From positions 1-43,975 of the forward strand of contig NZ_UCOB01000029.1 in assembly GCF_900474295.1 (NCBI RefSeq): a stretch of DNA of 43,975 nt, in the 5' to 3' direction. The notes under the pieces were generated by a model. It had not been told where the DNA came from, made no database searches, and was given only the letters and a program-made list of their open reading frames with translations. Position numbers and translations under genes: made by a program. Positions within the stretch are counted from its first letter, which is position 1, and each line of letters opens with the position of its first letter. Below are positions 23,736 to 35,292 of the stretch, in pieces. This DNA comes from Synechococcus sp. UW140. GTDB taxonomy: Bacteria; Cyanobacteriota; Cyanobacteriia; PCC-6307; Cyanobiaceae.

Positions 23736-25289
23736 TCAGATTTTCTCGATCGAGCCAAGTTTCCAAGTGCGGTCAAACCACTCCTGGCCAGGTCCGTAGA
23801 GACGGAAGATCCCAAACCAACCTTTGCCGGGGACCGTTTTGATCCAATTAGCATCCAAGCCTTCAGGTGCTTCAGGGCCGAAGTAGAGCGTGATGCTGCC
23901 ATCAGCATTTTTGACCATGTCGGTGTTGCGCGTGTTGTTCTTGCTGGGATAAGGCATCTCATCGCTCTGCAACATCGAGCGGGTTTGAGGGTCATAGACC
24001 ACAAACGACCAGAAACGGTTGGCCGGAGGATTGGCAGGAATGGTCATCGAGTAGCTGTTGGCGCCATCGAGATAAGAACCACGACTGTCACGGGAAGAGA
24101 AGGTGTACTGCGAACCCACTCCTGGCATCTCCAAAACCATCGCAGGCGTGTTGACAGTGGCCAGGTAGAAGAACAAGGTGCGTCCATCCATATCGCGGCC
24201 CCCGTTGCCACCATCCACGAGATATTCGTGGTTACCGCCAGGGAATCCGGTTTGCCAGTAGCCAGCTTTGCCTGGATAGATGTAAGCCTTGGGGTCTTGG
24301 GGAGCAAACAGAATCGAACGGGCTGTGGCATTACCGATGGCCACTGCCTCGGTGAGCATCGCCTTCTGTTCCGGAGAAGGATTGAAAGGCTTGCCTTTCT
24401 GGATGCCAATTGCCGAAGCCATGCCGAGCAGCTCCGGCGAGAACAGCTCGGACGGCTCGCGCTGAATCACCTCATCAAGCTCTTCGTAGAACTTGAAATT
24501 GTTGGCGTGAATGGTGTTCGTCTCCCAATCCGTGAGGTTCTTGAAATTGTTGGCAGGGGGATTGGCACGCTCCGCATAGGGATAGACCTTCAGGCCTCCC
24601 TTGAATGCATTTTTTGCAGTATCTGTTTTGCCCTCATCATCCAGAAAACCACGCAAGATCAACCAGTTGATCTTGCTAGGAGTGTTGGCAACAAAGTAGC
24701 CATCGGTGTTGGCAGGAGCTGACTGACCTGGACCGATAATCAAATATTTTCCGCCCTTGCCCCGATCGGGACCGGGGCCTCCCATATCCACCACAAAGCG
24801 GAAGAACGCATCGTTCACCGTGCCAGGGCCTGTACCAGCCGGCACTTCAACCACCATCGGGCCGGCACTGAGATCAAGAAAGGCCGAGGCGTAAACGGTA
24901 TCGGTGTTACCGGTGAGCCAGAGCGATTTGGAACTCATCAACTCTTCAAACACACCGATATCGCGATTCGGCTGCATGCCGTAGCCATCACGATGACCCA
25001 CATAGAGCATCTCGAGGGATGCCGCCGGCATGAAGTTCAGAAAGGTCTGAACGCCGCGGCCAAGGTCCACCTGGCGGCGGGCTTTGGCCATGGTGTCGTC
25101 GTTGGGGAACCCATCGAAATAATTGAAGCTGCCGATCCGCGTCTTCACCCTGTCAGGCGTCAGCACATCTTCAGGGATGGGCGTGTTGTAGCCCTGCGGA
25201 ACCACATCAGCCGCACGCAGCGCAGAAGCGCTACCGGCAAGAACGGCAGCAGAAAGAGCAGCAGTTGAGAAACGAGTGAAAGCAGTCAT
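23736..25289 (-). CDS. Secreted DUF1254/DUF1214 protein, copy 1
   Basis: The protein has 517 residues with a signal peptide MTAFTRFSTAALSAAVLAGS...LRA. The N-terminal DUF1254 half contains IGSFNYFDGFPND, FLNFMPAASLEMLYVG and LWLTGNTDTVYASAFLDL. The C-terminal DUF1214 half contains FWSFVVYDPQTRSML, NADGSITLYFGPEAPEG, ANWIKTVPGKGWFGIFRLYG and the end W-F-D-R-T-W-K-L. The family is widespread in marine bacteria, some algae and giant viruses; no biochemical role is known to me. It is likely periplasmic. It is a full-length paralogue of the next gene upstream, with a 37-bp gap between them. Confidence 0.88.
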   Translation of the reverse strand: MTAFTRFSTAALSAAVLAGSASALRAADVVPQGYNTPIPEDVLTPDRVKTRIGSFNYFDGFPNDDTMAKARRQVDLGRGVQTFLNFMPAASLEMLYVGHRDGYGMQPNRDIGVFEELMSSKSLWLTGNTDTVYASAFLDLSAGPMVVEVPAGTGPGTVNDAFFRFVVDMGGPGPDRGKGGKYLIIGPGQSAPANTDGYFVANTPSKINWLILRGFLDDEGKTDTAKNAFKGGLKVYPYAERANPPANNFKNLTDWETNTIHANNFKFYEELDEVIQREPSELFSPELLGMASAIGIQKGKPFNPSPEQKAMLTEAVAIGNATARSILFAPQDPKAYIYPGKAGYWQTGFPGGNHEYLVDGGNGGRDMDGRTLFFYLATVNTPAMVLEMPGVGSQYTFSSRDSRGSYLDGANSYSMTIPANPPANRFWSFVVYDPQTRSMLQSDEMPYPSKNNTRNTDMVKNADGSITLYFGPEAPEGLDANWIKTVPGKGWFGIFRLYGPGQEWFDRTWKLGSIEKI

Positions 25290-25326
25290 GGTTGAGAATG
25301 AATCGTGGTGTTGATCTGTTCAGGTC

Positions 25327-26892
25327 TCAACCGAGAGGCTGAATGTCGTTGAGCTGCCAGGTCTTGTCGAACCAAGGCTGTAGCGGTCCGTAGAAACGGA
25401 AACAGGCAAACCATCCCTTACCCGGCACGGTCTGAATCCAGTTGGCTTCCTTGCCCTGCGGTGCTGTCGGTCCGAAATAGAGATCAATACTTCCGTCGGC
25501 ATTCACCACCATGTCTTGGTTGCGCTTGCTGTTTTTACTGGGCAAGAGTTGATCGGTCTGCAACTCCGAGCGCGTCTGAGGGTCGTAAACCACCATCGAC
25601 CAGAAATCCTTGGCGGGCACGTTGGCATCCACCGTGAACTTGTAGGTTTTGCTGCCATCGAGATAGGCCCCATTGGCATCGGTCGCCACAACGCCGTACT
25701 GGGATCCGGCGCCAACCATCTTCAGCACCATCGCTGGGGTGTTGACGGTGTAACCCCAGAAGAAGTTGCTCCTGGCATCAAGATTTCGGCCGCCCTTTCC
25801 ACCATCGACAAGCCATTCATGGCTCCCACCCCCGAACGGGGTGAACCATTGCTTGTCCTCATAGAAGTAGACGTCTCGGTTGCGAGGCTTGCCCATATCA
25901 GCGCGCACGTAAGCGACTCCCACCTGAACGGCTTCCTCAAGGATCTGGCGGTCCTGAGCACTCGGGTTGAAGGGTTTGCCTTTCTCCAGACCGATCGCCG
26001 AAGCAAGCCCAAGCAGTTCAGGGTCAAACAGGTCGACCGGTTCACGCTGAATCACCGTGTTCAGCTCTTCAAAGAAGTGGAAATTATTGGCATGCACCGT
26101 GTTGAAGACAAGATCGCCGCCCTGGACGAATGTCATCGCCGGTGGATTGTCTTTCTGCGAGAGGGGATAAAGACGCAGACCGTTTTCGTAGTTCGCAATC
26201 GCCTGATCGGGCTTGCCTTGATCATCGAGGAAGGCGCGCAGAATCAACCAGTTGGAGTAGCTGGGTGAGCGGAAGACGAAATATCCCTCGGTGTTGGCAG
26301 GCTCGCTGTCATCGGGTCCAAGGATCAGATACTTGCCGCCTTTGCCCCGATCCGGACCGGGGGCGCCGGTGTCGGCCACGAAACGGAAATAGGCATCATT
26401 GATCGTGCCCGGACCAAGCCCCGCAGGAATTTCGATCACCATCGGCCCCGTGTCCTTCAGATTGAAGAAGGTGGAGCCATACACCGTGTCGGTGTTGCCG
26501 GTGAGGAAGAGGGGGTTGGAATTCAGCGGGGCCATCAACATGACCTTGGTGTGGTCGTCGACACCCTGCTGGGCATGACCGACCCGCATCATCTCGATGC
26601 TGGCGGCCGGCATCAGCGTCAGGAACGTCTCATAGGCGCGGATGAATTTGAGGTAGTCGAAGCTGGTTTGAACGGTGGCTGCATCGGGCATGCCATCGAA
26701 GAACCGGAACGTACCAACACTGGTGTCAACCACATCAGGAGTGAATACCTCCGCAGGAATCGACGTGGTGTAACCCTTAGGGACAGCCTGAGAGAAAGCG
26801 GCGAGAGGCCTAACAACAGAAGTGAGGCCCAGCCCCACCACCAAAGCAGAGCCGAGAAGCCTGCCTGAAGGTTGCCGAAATCTTTTGATCAA
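25327..26892 (-). CDS. Secreted DUF1254/DUF1214 protein, copy 2
   Basis: The protein has 521 residues. The start appears to be TTG at 26892, which gives a good signal peptide (IKRFRQPSGRLLGSALVV..., ending AFSQA); no ATG serves the same N-terminus. The same domain order and landmarks as copy 1 occur: VGTFRFFDGMPDAATV, FLTLMPAASIEMMRVGHAQQ, PLFLTGNTDTVYGSTF, GAPGPDRGKGGKYLILGP, FWSMVVYDPQTRSEL, NWIQTVPGKGWFACFRFYG. I infer local duplication followed by divergence. No catalytic residues can be assigned. Confidence 0.86.
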   Translation of the reverse strand: MIKRFRQPSGRLLGSALVVGLGLTSVVRPLAAFSQAVPKGYTTSIPAEVFTPDVVDTSVGTFRFFDGMPDAATVQTSFDYLKFIRAYETFLTLMPAASIEMMRVGHAQQGVDDHTKVMLMAPLNSNPLFLTGNTDTVYGSTFFNLKDTGPMVIEIPAGLGPGTINDAYFRFVADTGAPGPDRGKGGKYLILGPDDSEPANTEGYFVFRSPSYSNWLILRAFLDDQGKPDQAIANYENGLRLYPLSQKDNPPAMTFVQGGDLVFNTVHANNFHFFEELNTVIQREPVDLFDPELLGLASAIGLEKGKPFNPSAQDRQILEEAVQVGVAYVRADMGKPRNRDVYFYEDKQWFTPFGGGSHEWLVDGGKGGRNLDARSNFFWGYTVNTPAMVLKMVGAGSQYGVVATDANGAYLDGSKTYKFTVDANVPAKDFWSMVVYDPQTRSELQTDQLLPSKNSKRNQDMVVNADGSIDLYFGPTAPQGKEANWIQTVPGKGWFACFRFYGPLQPWFDKTWQLNDIQPLG

Positions 26893-29995: not shown

Positions 29996-30538
29996 TCACT
30001 TCGTGGTGGTGGTGGTGGTGGATCCACGGATCAACGACTCAATCATCACCGCATCACCCAGCTCAATTCCCAGCCGTTCAGCCTCACCAGCGCCGAGTTC
30101 AATCACACTGTCAGCGGGATCGATCTTGCCGTCAGCATCCACATCCGCTCCATAGCTGGGGCATGGCAAAGAAGAACAGAACGGCACATCGCGATGAATG
30201 GCGATCACCCTGTTGTCGAGCACAAACACCATGTCGAGCGGAGCAATGGTGTTATGCATCCAGAATTTGAGGGGCAACCGTCGCTTAAACGGAAACCACA
30301 TCCCCCTCAGGGGGGGGAGTGGTGGCCGCTGCATCAAGCCGAGGCGCTGTTCGTCGGTCTGATCCGCCACCTCAAGGTCAATGCATATCCGGCTGTTCAA
30401 ACACCAGCGCGCTTCGATCGGCAACTGCTGTGGTGGCATGCCCTGCGCCTGCGCGAACAGGGCACCTGAGCCGGTCTGCACGACCGCAAGACCAGCCGCC
30501 ACCGCTAAGCCTCTCAGCCTTCGCTCACGTGACCTCAC
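29996..30538 (-). CDS. Secreted DUF192 protein with an EF-hand-like loop
   Basis: The protein has 180 residues from a GTG start. A signal peptide (RRLRGLAVAAGLAVVQTGSG...AQAQG) precedes the DUF192 domain: ICIDLEVADQTDEQRLGLMQ, LRGMWFPFKRRLPLKFWMHN (W-M-K/H-N core), LDMVFVLDNRVIAIHRDVPF, and ELGAGEAERLGIELGDAV. Between the conserved C-S-S-x-P-C-P-S-Y-G and V-I-E-L-G-A-G is DVDADGKIDPAD (132-143), a textbook EF-hand/dockerin calcium loop. A C-terminal run of six Thr comes from CCA/ACC repeats. The family is of unknown function, likely periplasmic. I do not know whether the loop binds calcium. Confidence 0.83.
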   Translation of the reverse strand: MRSRERRLRGLAVAAGLAVVQTGSGALFAQAQGMPPQQLPIEARWCLNSRICIDLEVADQTDEQRLGLMQRPPLPPLRGMWFPFKRRLPLKFWMHNTIAPLDMVFVLDNRVIAIHRDVPFCSSLPCPSYGADVDADGKIDPADSVIELGAGEAERLGIELGDAVMIESLIRGSTTTTTTK

Positions 30539-30733: not shown

Positions 30734-30754
30734 GTTGCTGAGCAGCTCAGCAAC
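30734..30754 (-). terminator. Inverted repeat spanning the stop of the VOC gene
   Basis: GTTGCTGAGC-A-GCTCAGCAAC is a 10-bp perfect inverted repeat around one base. As RNA it would form an 8-bp stem with a 5-nt loop. It includes the TGA stop of the VOC gene (30747-30749). No T-tract follows, so it is only a weak terminator candidate. Confidence 0.3.
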
Positions 30755-31178
30755 TCTTGAGCTCAATCCCGTTGCCCTCAGGGTCGCGGAACTGAATCGA
30801 AGGCCCATTTCCCTCGGCACCAAAGCGGGTTTGCAACGTGGCCCGGGCCTCAATGCCATGGCTTTTCAAATAAGCCAAGAGCGCATCGGCATCAAATGGA
30901 TGCACTTTCAACGCCACATGGTCCACATTGCGGCCGCTGGCCGCTGGTGGTGCCGTATCTCCCGTAGCCCCACCAAGTTTCCCAAGAACCCCATCCACGG
31001 GAACCAAGTCGATCAGGCCATTGCCAACACGCAGATGCCAAAGATCCAAAGCTTCGTTGTGCTTTGCCAGCTCACATCCCAACACCGTTGTGTAGAAATC
31101 GAGCATGGAATCCAAGTCGCGCACACGAATCACGACATGATCGATGCCAAGCAGAGGTAGGGACGTTGTTGCTGCCAC
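30747..31178 (-). CDS. VOC (glyoxalase/bleomycin-resistance) superfamily protein
   Basis: The protein has 143 residues from a GTG start. Two beta-alpha-beta-beta-beta repeats are visible: LLGIDHVVIRVRDLDSMLDF with a first metal-type His, then GRNVDHVALKVHPFDADALL with the second, and the closing F-R-D-P-E-G-N-G-I-E-L-K-S strand with Glu. These match the single-domain VOC fold, whose dimers bind a divalent metal. Members include glyoxalase I, dioxygenases and fosfomycin-resistance-type enzymes; the substrate here is unknown. No neighbour hints at the role. Confidence 0.85.
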   Translation of the reverse strand: MAATTSLPLLGIDHVVIRVRDLDSMLDFYTTVLGCELAKHNEALDLWHLRVGNGLIDLVPVDGVLGKLGGATGDTAPPAASGRNVDHVALKVHPFDADALLAYLKSHGIEARATLQTRFGAEGNGPSIQFRDPEGNGIELKSC

Positions 31179-31523: not shown

Positions 31524-32201
31524 TCAGGGTGCCGAGGACGACAGACCGTCGCTCAGGCTGTACCCCTTACCGCGAATGGTGTGAATTAACCGTTGTTCAC
31601 CATTCTGCTCAAGTTTTTGGCGCAGATAGCGCACATACACCTCAATCACGTTGCTGGATGTGCGCTGATCGCCATTCCAAACCTCAGACAGGATCTGCTC
31701 GCGGCTCACCACCTGCCCCGCCTGGCTGAACAACAGCATCAGCAGGGCATATTCCCGAGCAGTCAGCGCCACAGGCCTGCCGCCTCGACGCACCTGACGG
31801 CAACTGGAATCAACGCTCAGATCAGCCAGCTGAAGCACGGTTCTTCGCTTGCGATCGCGCTGCTGAATCGTGAGGTGCAGGCGTAGACGCTGCAACAGGT
31901 CACTAATGCCCAACGATGAAAGCCAGAAATCATTGGCCCCCGCGCTCAAGCAAGCTTCACGCCCCTGAATGCTGTCCTCCCCCACATCCAGAAGGATGGT
32001 CATGGCGCCAACACGAGCGCGCAGAGCGGGGATCAAGTTGGCCTGCGCTGCCGAAACGATCGCCAAAGCGGGCGTCGCCTCAGGGGAAGGGGCGAAGGAC
32101 GCGGCACCGGCACTCCAATCGAGGGGCTGATAGCCGGACGCTTCGAGGCGTGGAGCCAGCCCGACCGCCTGATCGCCCACAAGCAACACCGCTTCTGCCA
32201 C
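31524..32201 (-). CDS. OmpR-type DNA-binding regulator with a degenerate receiver domain
   Basis: The protein has 225 residues from a GTG start. The C-terminal winged helix is intact: VALTAREYALLMLLFSQAGQ, VVSREQILSEVWNGD, NVIEVYVRYLRQKLE and LIHTIRGKGYSL are diagnostic of the OmpR/PhoB family. The N-terminal about 110 residues keep the receiver outline (ending LSAGANDFW then SDLLQRLRLHL). They lack the acidic pair after VLLV, the phosphoacceptor Asp (the strand reads ALAIVSA) and the Lys before Pro (WLSSLG instead of LVKPF). So it should not be phosphorylated in the normal way and may respond to a ligand, a partner or its own level. It begins 5 bp after nadK, in the same operon. Confidence 0.85.
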   Translation of the reverse strand: MAEAVLLVGDQAVGLAPRLEASGYQPLDWSAGAASFAPSPEATPALAIVSAAQANLIPALRARVGAMTILLDVGEDSIQGREACLSAGANDFWLSSLGISDLLQRLRLHLTIQQRDRKRRTVLQLADLSVDSSCRQVRRGGRPVALTAREYALLMLLFSQAGQVVSREQILSEVWNGDQRTSSNVIEVYVRYLRQKLEQNGEQRLIHTIRGKGYSLSDGLSSSAP

Positions 32202-32206
32202 AGCCG

Positions 32207-33139
32207 CTAAAGCTCCGTTTTCGGTGGATCTGGCTTGGCCACGTGCGGGAGGCCCCAGCCCAATTTATTGCGCAGAACCTGAAAGAACTCATGGTCTGCC
32301 AGGCGAACGAATCGCACCGGATGCTCGCTTCGGCGAATCAAAACCCGGTCTTCTGGCCACACATAACAACCAGCACTTCCATCCACCACCATGATCAGCC
32401 GTTCTGGAGTGGCCGGGAACACCGTCACCGGCTCCTGATCGCTAAACACCAGCGCCCTTGAGGCCAAAGAGTGCGGAGCGATGGGAGTGAGCTGCAGCAC
32501 TGGACAATCCGGGGTAATCACTGGCCCCCCGGCGCTGAGCGCATAGGCGGTGGAACCTGTCGGGGTGGAAAGGATCACACCGTCAGCGGAGATGTCCACC
32601 GGAGCATGACGACCGATCGCGATCTCGAAATGGCACATGCTGGTTAGCGGCTCTCGGTGCAGAGCCATCTCGTTCAAGCACAGCGCTTCCCAACGGCGCT
32701 GATCACCGCGCATCACACTCACAACCAGGTTGGCGCGCTCCTCAATCGTCCATTGCTCGGTGAGCACCTGCTCGATCGCTTGATCGAGGTTGTCGAGATA
32801 AGCCTCCGCCAGAAAGCCCAAATGGCCGGTGTTGATCGTGAGGATTGGCACCCCCACAGGGGCGGTCTGACGCGCTGCTGACAAAACAGTGCCATCACCG
32901 CCTAGCACGATCGCCAAGGCCATTGAGGGATCAAACCCCTCTGGCACGCAGGCGTTGTAACCCAGCATGCGTAGGTGCTGATCCGGGTTCGCAAAGCCCA
33001 CCATGCCGCCAGCACTGCTGACCCGCACGACGTCATGGCCGGCCCGCTCCAGACTGGCTTGGATGGTCTGCGCGGTCTCGACCGCCAGCGTCTTGCCGTC
33101 ATTCACGATCAGTCCAACCTTGGGCACCGATCGAATCAC
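32207..33139 (-). CDS. nadK: NAD kinase
   Basis: The protein has 310 residues. The start is a GTG at 33139, or the GTG four codons on. [10 protein letters not shown] opens the fold. [14 protein letters not shown] is the GGDGT motif for the phosphate donor; NTGHLGFL and [20 protein letters not shown] are the remaining NAD-kinase signatures. It makes NADP from NAD and ATP (or polyphosphate) in the cytoplasm and so sets NADPH supply for carbon fixation. Cyanobacteria usually carry two NAD kinases; which one this is cannot be told. The degenerate OmpR-type regulator follows at 5 bp, so the two are co-transcribed. Confidence 0.95.
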
Positions 33140-33243
33140 GCAACAGGTGGATCACTTTATGAGAGAGAACCGTCTCCATGGCACAGGGTGGGGATTTGTG
33201 ATGCCTGCAGTCGGGTCTTGGCCCGCATCAAAGGGCACTGCCA

Positions 33244-33288: not shown

Positions 33289-35292
33289 ATGCTGCTCGCT
33301 CGCTCCACACCCTTGGCTCTGCTGCTGTCTGCACTTGGGATAGGAGTTGCATCTTGCTCCTTCGGAGGGGGAAACGCATTGAGCGGGAAACTCTCCCTAA
33401 TGGGTGAACCGGTTCAGCAGGCCACCATCAACGTCTGGCGCAGCCGCGGTGGAGAAGAAGCCAAGCTTTTACAAACGCTGAAATCGAAGTCTGACGGATC
33501 TTTCAAGCTGGCTCTCAAGCCTGAAGCAGGAAGCATTGACTACCTCGTTGCCCAAGGGGGCAGCGTCAATGGCGAGACAGCGGACAAGCTCACCATGTTG
33601 ACCGTTCTGGATCAAAACACCACTGAAAGCGTCCATATCAATGAACTGACAACCGTCGGCTCGGTGTGGCCCAATGCCCAGTTATTCGAAGGAGATCAAC
33701 TCACAGGCAGCACCAGTGCACTGGCGATTGGCTCCAGCCAAGTGCACAACCTTGTTAACCAAACATCAGGGACATTCGGTGACACCCTATTAAACAGCGC
33801 CAATCTGCTCAACTCCGAAACAGCCGTTCGCATGAACGTGCTTTCAAACCTGCTAGCTCTCTGCGGACAAACCTCTCAATCCAGTGGCTGTACTTCACTC
33901 CTAAGCCTGACTGGAGCAGACAACACCCTTGCGGCGATGATCTCGATCGCCCGCCAGCCCTGGAACAATGTTGCGGCTCTCTACCAATTATTTGAGAGCA
34001 ACTACCCCGTTGATCAGGACACACAACTGCGCTCCACCGCAAGCCTTCCTTACCTGCTCTTCCAGCCCGATAGTTTCTCCCTATCCATCCGGCTCAACGG
34101 CGGTGGTGCACTCGCCCTGGGCAAGTTGATGTTTGATCACAAAGGCAACGCCTGGAGTGGTGCCAATTGGATGCCTGGATCGCAATCTGGCGTGATCAAC
34201 AGCATTGGCGGTGGTGTGACGCATTTTGGCCCGGGAGGCAAGGCCCTCTCTCCTCCCATCACGGGCTACAACGGCCAGGGCCTGAACGGAACCGGCTGGG
34301 GGACAGGCGTCTCAGAGAAGTATGCATGGGTTGGCACATTTAATAACCGAGTCGGCGTTTTTTCACTGGAAGACGGCAAGGCCCTTGGCCCTGCCACCAT
34401 CGATCAACCTGTGGGGCAACTGCAAGGGATCGGCACAGCGGGGAATGGAGATGTTTGGATCGCCGACAACACCGAAAACCACATGATTCATTTCCCCGGT
34501 GGCGACTATACCCAGGGAAAAAGAATCTCAATCAAGGGCCTACAGGCACCTTTTGGTGTAGCCATTGATGCTCAAAATCGGGTCTGGGTGAGTAGCAGCT
34601 TTAACAACAAAATCACCGTTTTCCCAGCGGATTCACCTGAACAATCAACTGCCATCGAGGTCAATCTTGGTACTCGCGGGCTTGCCGTGGATTCAACCGG
34701 CCATGTATGGATCGCCCAACAAACCCACTCACCAAAAGGCGCTCTAGCACCAGGCGCCAAGATCCCACCGGGAATCCCCGCCAATCCACCCCAACCGAAA
34801 ACAATCATGCAGGAGTTTGCGGCGGGGGCGGAGTTCTATGTTGACAATCCCACGCTGACGCAGTCTGGGGTTGCTGCTGTCATCTCACCAGACCTAAAAG
34901 TTGTCAAGAACGACATCGCAAAAGGGATCGCCTACATTCCCTGGGGAGTCACGATTGATGGCAACGATAATGTCTGGATCGGCAACCTCTATGGACAAAG
35001 CCTAATTCACATCTGCGGGATGAAACCCAGCACATGCCCTGAAGGGAAAAGCACAGGTGATGTCATTCACAATTACCAAAGCGGAGTCATCCAAATCACC
35101 ACCGATGTGATCGTTGATGATGCTGGCAATCTCTGGAGTGCCAACAACTGGTTTGACGGTGAGGTTGTCATCAACAAAACGCCAAACGCTCGAACCTCCA
35201 CCTTCCCTGGAGGGCAGGGCCTTGTTGTCACTTACGGCGTTGCAGCACCCGTCCAGAATCCTCTGATGGGCCCAGTGCGCAAACCCAACTAA
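33289..35292 (+). CDS. Lipoprotein with Vgb/NHL-like beta-propeller repeats
   Basis: The protein has 667 residues. TPLALLLSALGIGVASC is a lipoprotein signal, with the lipidated Cys near 23 in V-A-S-C. Residues about 30-130 resemble a carboxypeptidase-regulatory-like beta sandwich (SGKLSLMGEPVQQATINVW). From about 280 come propeller blades with a repeated D-x-x-x-x-x-W-x-x-x motif: DHKGNAWSGANW, GNGDVWIADN, DAQNRVWVSS, DSTGHVWIAQ, DGNDNVWIGN, DDAGNLWSAN. These resemble virginiamycin-B-lyase or NHL propellers. It is anchored in the inner or outer membrane and faces the periplasm or outside. The ligand is unknown. It ends 3 bp before the stop of the convergent ABC1 kinase gene. Confidence 0.82.
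   Translation: MLLARSTPLALLLSALGIGVASCSFGGGNALSGKLSLMGEPVQQATINVWRSRGGEEAKLLQTLKSKSDGSFKLALKPEAGSIDYLVAQGGSVNGETADKLTMLTVLDQNTTESVHINELTTVGSVWPNAQLFEGDQLTGSTSALAIGSSQVHNLVNQTSGTFGDTLLNSANLLNSETAVRMNVLSNLLALCGQTSQSSGCTSLLSLTGADNTLAAMISIARQPWNNVAALYQLFESNYPVDQDTQLRSTASLPYLLFQPDSFSLSIRLNGGGALALGKLMFDHKGNAWSGANWMPGSQSGVINSIGGGVTHFGPGGKALSPPITGYNGQGLNGTGWGTGVSEKYAWVGTFNNRVGVFSLEDGKALGPATIDQPVGQLQGIGTAGNGDVWIADNTENHMIHFPGGDYTQGKRISIKGLQAPFGVAIDAQNRVWVSSSFNNKITVFPADSPEQSTAIEVNLGTRGLAVDSTGHVWIAQQTHSPKGALAPGAKIPPGIPANPPQPKTIMQEFAAGAEFYVDNPTLTQSGVAAVISPDLKVVKNDIAKGIAYIPWGVTIDGNDNVWIGNLYGQSLIHICGMKPSTCPEGKSTGDVIHNYQSGVIQITTDVIVDDAGNLWSANNWFDGEVVINKTPNARTSTFPGGQGLVVTYGVAAPVQNPLMGPVRKPN

Follow-up and report, generated by a model that had tools for sequence, protein, structure and literature searches.

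How a DNA-binding regulator is switched once the phosphorylation site of its receiver has gone, and what its position directly behind an NAD kinase gene means for its function, are the questions raised by this locus. The window, i.e., the whole stretch of DNA analysed, comprises 43,975 nt of contig NZ_UCOB01000029.1 from Synechococcus sp. UW140 (GCF_900474295.1). The original prediction held that nadK is followed after 5 bp by an OmpR-type regulator with a phosphorylation-dead receiver and an intact DNA-binding domain, and that this regulator may link NADP status to transcription. The features needed here are as follows.

29996..30538, minus strand: gene of a DUF192 protein, third gene of the ancestral block
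30747..31178, minus strand: glyoxalase/VOC-family gene, between the regulator and DUF192 genes
31524..32201, minus strand: NblR-like atypical response regulator, 225 aa, GTG start
31545..31841, minus strand: OmpR/PhoB winged-helix DNA-binding domain, aa 121-219 of the regulator
31848..32201, minus strand: pseudo-receiver domain, aa 1-118 of the regulator, predicted receiver fold with the phosphorylation site gone
31848..31970, minus strand: alpha4-beta5-alpha5 face, aa 78-118 of the regulator, with R81, D91 and R105 invariant
32207..33139, minus strand: nadK, NAD(+) kinase, first gene of the block
33154..33161, minus strand: conserved -10-like element CATAAAGT, the block's probable promoter, about 20 bp upstream of the nadK start

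The reading frames of nadK and the regulator are both open, and the predicted 5 bp (32202-32206) separate them. The nadK product scores 571 bits against NCBIfam model NF002732, well above its curated cut-off of 348, and can be assigned as an NAD kinase. Among the loci checked, the VOC gene inserted between the regulator and DUF192 was found elsewhere only in UW105 (L178, L039). Two further features of the window were observed. At 23736-26892, two long adjacent minus-strand open reading frames of 517 and 521 aa look similar by eye, an apparent tandem duplication. At 33289-35292, divergent from nadK, lies the gene of a 667-aa probable lipoprotein with NHL-type repeats, which is present near the locus in some relatives only.

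The C-terminal half of the regulator matches PF00486 (Trans_reg_C) at 4.3e-27, so that the DNA-binding domain is intact, as predicted, and of the winged-helix type that defines the OmpR/PhoB class. Trans_reg_C was the only Pfam family listed for the protein at E<=1, and no receiver family appeared at this threshold. A structural model of the DNA-binding domain superposes on PrrA with a Z-score of 16.9 and an rmsd of 1.6 over 98 residues. The full-length model has a pLDDT of 85 and a pTM of only 0.54, and the arrangement of the two domains is therefore uncertain; the top query-normalised TM-score among its 50 matches listed, 0.55, belongs to two DNA-bound chains of CosR, which we take to be a phosphorylation-independent regulator, while two further CosR chains gave 0.42. 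Modelled alone, the N-terminal domain (pLDDT 88.9, pTM 0.84) has the VicR receiver as its best match (Z 13.3, rmsd 2.9 over 111 residues). All 50 matches listed for it are receivers or response-regulator-type proteins, a few of them, such as DgcR, NtrC4 and one fusion, presumably so. A short turn within a low-confidence stretch (residues 31-40, mean pLDDT 59) takes the place of helix 2, while the other elements are present; the beta1-alpha1 and beta3-alpha3 loops are shortened. The domain is thus predicted to adopt a receiver fold devoid of the phosphorylation residues, as expected for the pseudo-receiver of an atypical response regulator.

The loss of these residues was followed in an alignment of 94 relatives (89 distinct), consisting of 26 from a first search and 68 of 80 loci from named genomes; 10 partial matches and 2 sequences reading past a stop had been excluded at the outset. 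For comparison, 33 canonical NblR proteins and 7 of the genome's 9 other OmpR-type regulators were aligned. At the columns of the two acidic residues, the phospho-Asp and the Lys, the window regulator has G9, D10, S50 and S95, respectively, with numbers counted from the alignment, and it does not carry the set that makes a receiver phosphorylatable (acidic pair, Asp, Thr/Ser and Lys). The first acidic column is G in 94/94 relatives, which means that the pair is gone in all of them, even though the second is D in 4 (the window included) and E in 12, the rest not being acidic; here, the aligned beta1-alpha1 loop is 3 residues shorter. No relative has D in the phospho-Asp column, which holds S (38), A (33), G (13), V (7) or L (3), or K in the Lys column, where S (55), T (16), P (15), A (4) and C (4) are found; the seven aligned OmpR-type paralogues of the same genome all retain both. 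The orthologue alignment therefore confirms the predicted loss of the acidic pair, Asp and Lys throughout the close relatives, D10 of the window being the one acidic position still occupied.

The face through which OmpR-type receivers pair presents a different picture. The columns which we take to correspond to PhoB R91, D101 and R115 (R81, D91 and R105 in the window regulator) are R, D and R in 94/94 relatives each. The E111 column holds D in 91/94 and E in 3/94, and D100 is kept in 78/94, compared with 4/94 for R122. Judged from these columns, the dimer-face residues are kept while the phosphorylation residues are lost in this family. With the DNA-binding part retained as well, the regulator is probably switched in another way. 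Across 10 pairs of relatives, dN/dS ranges over 0.035-0.256 in the receiver and 0.011-0.321 in the DNA-binding domain, compared with 0.005-0.044 in nadK. Such low values point to a working regulator gene under purifying selection, which evolves faster than nadK.

Close relatives were detected in 26 of 60 genomes (the window's own included); all 26 belong to the window's family, for which the search covered 37 genomes. In each of the 26, the gene is open and nadK lies directly upstream. A scan of named genomes, from which the best 80 loci were retained, added Synechococcus UW105 (96% identical), WH7803, Cyanobium and Vulcanococcus, among others. Here, nadK is adjacent in all 76 loci with upstream sequence (4 are cut off), and DUF192 follows directly in 78 of the 79 with downstream sequence (1 is cut off), the sole exception being UW105 with the same VOC insert as the window. 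The expected conservation of nadK and the regulator as neighbours is thereby borne out across Cyanobiaceae. Phage records also match the regulator (121 at E<=1e-3, none above 60% identity); from the five viewed, we take these matches to reflect general OmpR-type kinship.

The constancy of both neighbours indicates where the regulator may have come from. Among 42 NCBIfam families, its best model is NblR (NF045914) at 151 bits, half the curated cut-off of 300, and for this reason we speak of a counterpart of NblR and not of a certified NblR. In a class-wide sample, NblR above the cut-off was found in 93 of 146 genomes. In 57 of these 93, spread over 16 families, nadK lies directly upstream on the same strand at 28-316 bp; the two are apart on the same contig in 11 and on different contigs in 25, where assembly breaks may account for some cases (NblR of G064 starts 95 bases into its contig). 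When 30 NblR loci were inspected with 1.5 kb flanks, 22 were preceded by nadK and followed by DUF192 (the latter at a distance of about 1.2 kb in L106 and L107), 5 had nadK only and 3 DUF192 only. The slot between nadK and DUF192, which we defined from these canonical loci as a mark of NblR, is occupied in the window by the regulator, with the VOC gene inserted before DUF192. Of the two cysteines of NblR named in the title of a 2012 paper by Espinosa, Cys69 is absent in 94/94 relatives, whereas Cys96 is found in 71/94 (the window included) and in 32/33 NblR.

The likeness to NblR of the S. elongatus PCC 7942 type (NF045914) comprises the gene block, shared with most cyanobacteria sampled, the OmpR-type DNA-binding domain and, in most relatives, Cys96, besides the independence from phosphorylation reported for NblR. 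There are also differences. Canonical NblR lacks part of the phosphorylation pocket, with no acidic second residue and M or I in the Thr column, but keeps the phospho-Asp and Lys in 33/33 rows, whereas in the window's family the whole site is gone, together with Cys69, two loops are shortened, helix 2 is reduced, and the score falls below the family cut-off. The expectation that orthologues would not retain the Asp therefore stands for the close relatives (0/94) but not for NblR of the same slot. Nor is the dimer face a trait common to both, as R115 is kept in the regulator family and replaced by L in 28 of 33 canonical NblR.

Could another class of OmpR-type regulator have taken over the slot between nadK and DUF192? 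The sequence comparisons leave some room for this. One tree groups the window's family with NblR (support 87/91), and a third separates both, along with other degenerate forms, from the rest (93/94), but in the second tree this grouping is absent from the best tree (p-AU 0.386, against 0.187 for the family with the nearest other class). Since the branch to the regulator family is long, the trees lean towards NblR without proving orthology. Identity between consensus sequences is also divided, with 34/98 to NblR and 31/98 to the other class in the receiver and a marginal 50/106 against 54/106 in the DNA-binding domain. However, the regulator sits in the same slot with the same two neighbours as NblR, Cys96 is found in 71/94 of its family but in 0/8 of the other class (and 0/7 paralogues), and neither nadK nor DUF192 lies near other-class regulators at the 8 loci inspected (8-12 kb each). 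We thus regard replacement of NblR by such a class as improbable.

Derivation from NblR is preferred here, and decay of the site is seen in further proteins of this type. At L297:1501-2172 and L298:1501-2160 (family f16), an NblR-type protein is followed directly by DUF192, and by eye its Asp has become E or A and its Lys S or P. In L299 (G106, another genus of f16), which also has DUF192 downstream, both residues are kept. L297 and L298 nest with NblR in the tree (89/92), away from the window's family, and their lineage apparently lost the site separately; since they lie within NblR, the phosphorylation site was probably lost at least twice in NblR-type proteins. In L289-L295 (families f13 and f33), the site is mostly gone as well: among five distinct types read by eye, four no longer have the Asp and none has the Lys. 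These genes have no nadK or DUF192 in their 1.5 kb flanks and stand apart in the tree, and the class may or may not be NblR.

The order of events bears directly on the proposed role of nadK. Because NblR in the same slot retains Asp and Lys, its linkage to nadK predates the loss of the site, and this linkage is dispensable. In the NADP proposal, NADP status would be coupled to transcription through binding of NAD(P)(H) by the pseudo-receiver or through its contact with NadK. The proposal draws on the age and breadth of the gene order, on the missing phosphorylation site and on the much altered alpha2 and beta3-alpha3 regions. These are regions that ligand-binding pseudo-receivers often use, according to PMC12632262. 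Conversely, nadK persists in genomes without the regulator, NblR occurs without adjacent nadK (11/93, same contig), DUF192 adjoins the regulator about as regularly as nadK does, and the structural matches of the receiver-only model are those of an ordinary receiver. Together with the association with phycobilisomes described below, these findings leave a specific link to NADP status unsupported and do not favour it over simple co-expression within an old block, and we consider it very unlikely. Much the same low probability attaches to a broader version, in which NblR would repeatedly have turned into a ligand- or redox-sensing pseudo-receiver whose Cyanobiaceae form reads the NADP(H) or a related photosynthetic redox state produced by NadK, its partner in the operon, and as a one-component regulator sets light-harvesting genes directly. 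An NADP-binding pocket was also sought through the structural matches of the receiver model and was dropped, since all 50 listed are receivers or response-regulator-type proteins, a result compatible with ligand binding as such. The end of beta1 (LLVG...A) was considered as a dinucleotide-binding loop and judged a superficial resemblance only. In literature searches that left most subscription journals uncovered, no relevant paper was found on nblR with NAD kinase, and only a general review on nblR in marine Synechococcus.

Transcription with nadK, in turn, implies no regulatory link to NADP. Of 95 distinct regions upstream of nadK, 92 carry an element resembling CATAAAGT at about 20 bp from the gene, a count inflated by kinship among these regions and obtained with a wider pattern picked after viewing the sequences; the stricter first pattern gave 76/108, outgroup regions included. 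Mononucleotide shuffles of the upstream regions yielded a mean of 0.7 and a maximum of 3. The element is also present where pheS lies directly upstream. Its conservation suggests a single conserved promoter for nadK and the regulator, and together with the 5 bp spacing makes co-transcription likely. If CATAAAGT is indeed a -10 box, the leader would be very short. As a check for autoregulation, the nadK upstream regions were searched by eye for a direct repeat common to the family, and none was seen.

This arrangement could accommodate a regulator that is a constitutive dimer governed by its amount alone, with neither ligand nor partner and with control exerted at the promoter before nadK. The invariant dimer-face residues, the -10-like element in 92/95 regions and the 5 bp spacing in the window are all in accordance with it. 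On the other hand, L7, G9, R18, L19, S22 and G23 of the beta1-alpha1 region are at least 97% conserved among the relatives, although a domain that serves as a mere pairing handle should hardly need them, unless they serve folding. Control by amount alone consequently appears unlikely, while amount retains its place among the possible switches of an NblR counterpart.

To relate the regulator to the physiology of its hosts, its presence was compared with phycobilisome content, scored by PF00502 matches, in 61 family genomes; a best profile match at E<=1e-60 counted as presence, the best of all remaining matches being 1e-41. Of the genomes with at least 5 PF00502 matches, 35 of 41 have the regulator, compared with 0 of 20 among those with 1-2 (Fisher p 3.7e-11, which overstates the association because the test ignores kinship). 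The presence of the regulator follows phycobilisomes, although most of the phycobilisome-poor genomes probably belong to a single lineage, so that the association rests on few independent events, and six phycobilisome-bearing genomes are without it. The ways in which it is missing vary: G100, G210 and G185 have nadK followed by DUF192 and no regulator match; G196 has nadK, a weak 26-residue match to the end of the regulator (E 0.003) and then DUF192; three genomes of g92 have neither regulator nor DUF192 within 1.5 kb after nadK; and five genomes, which we infer, partly from their phycobilisome count, to be Prochlorococcus-like, keep nadK followed by neither. In G023, of the same genus as the window, the start and end of the gene are recognisable by eye in a remnant that lacks the middle (L139:5742-5960). 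Such a remnant and the absence from 26 of 61 family genomes would be expected if the gene were decaying towards loss, but the gene is open in 26/26 first relatives, and dN/dS does not exceed 0.32 in 10/10 pairs for both domains. General decay, disfavoured by this selection test, therefore has next to no probability.

NblA-like genes were also sought in genomes of the family. With PF04485, no nblA was found in 37/37 family genomes; a second sample gave matches at E<=10 in 19/61 genomes, none above the cut-off and none in G000. The argument that NblR would have no target here, there being no nblA, was nevertheless dropped, as PMC7439483 reports a divergent nblA-like gene in WH8102. When a short open reading frame of G153 with a weak NblA match (L259) was used as the query, 49/61 family genomes matched at E<=0.1, with 6.4e-7 in G000, and matches at E<=1e-3 were found in 36 of 41 phycobilisome-rich compared with 1 of 20 phycobilisome-poor genomes. 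Phycobilisome-bearing Cyanobiaceae have short NblA-like reading frames such as G000:C29:37658-37813, sometimes several in one genome. Lying below the Pfam NblA cut-off, they represent a candidate divergent NblA family.

On the combined evidence we favour, with a probability of roughly two in three, the interpretation of the regulator as a phosphorylation-independent, dimeric counterpart of NblR in Cyanobiaceae, carried in an ancient nadK-nblR-DUF192 block. It would pair through its alpha4-beta5-alpha5 face without phosphorylation and bind DNA as a dimer. As a one-component regulator of the NblR type, it would be switched not by a sensor kinase but by a protein partner, by a small ligand or through its own amount. 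As with NblR, its targets may be genes of light-harvesting and nutrient-stress acclimation, perhaps including the divergent NblA-like genes.

A pseudo-receiver joined to a winged helix is likewise found in the phosphorylation-independent OmpR-type regulators HP1043, RitR and ChxR, and CosR and GlnR also act without phosphorylation. None of these five is a close sequence relative of the regulator, and they differ from it in lineage and gene context. RpaA, RpaB and the other cyanobacterial OmpR-type regulators share its domain order, DNA-binding fold and receiver fold; the assignment of the genome's paralogues as RpaA or RpaB is our presumption. For NblR itself, PMC12632262 and PMC4390884 report that the S. 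elongatus protein functions without need of phosphorylation, and in the latter, from 2015, its role is still termed enigmatic. Phosphorylation-independence of NblR is thus already known, and the proposed counterpart described here has lost the whole phosphorylation site.

This stripped counterpart is kept across Synechococcus- and Cyanobium-type genomes and in 0/20 phycobilisome-poor ones. It retains what phosphorylation-independent action seems to need and in this way points to the residues that matter, offering a well-defined system in which to study the switching of pseudo-receiver regulators. Should the gene carry no more than a two-component response regulator annotation, any search for its kinase would be futile. 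As organisms of these types include abundant primary producers, the targets of the regulator would bear on how such producers adjust their light harvesting.
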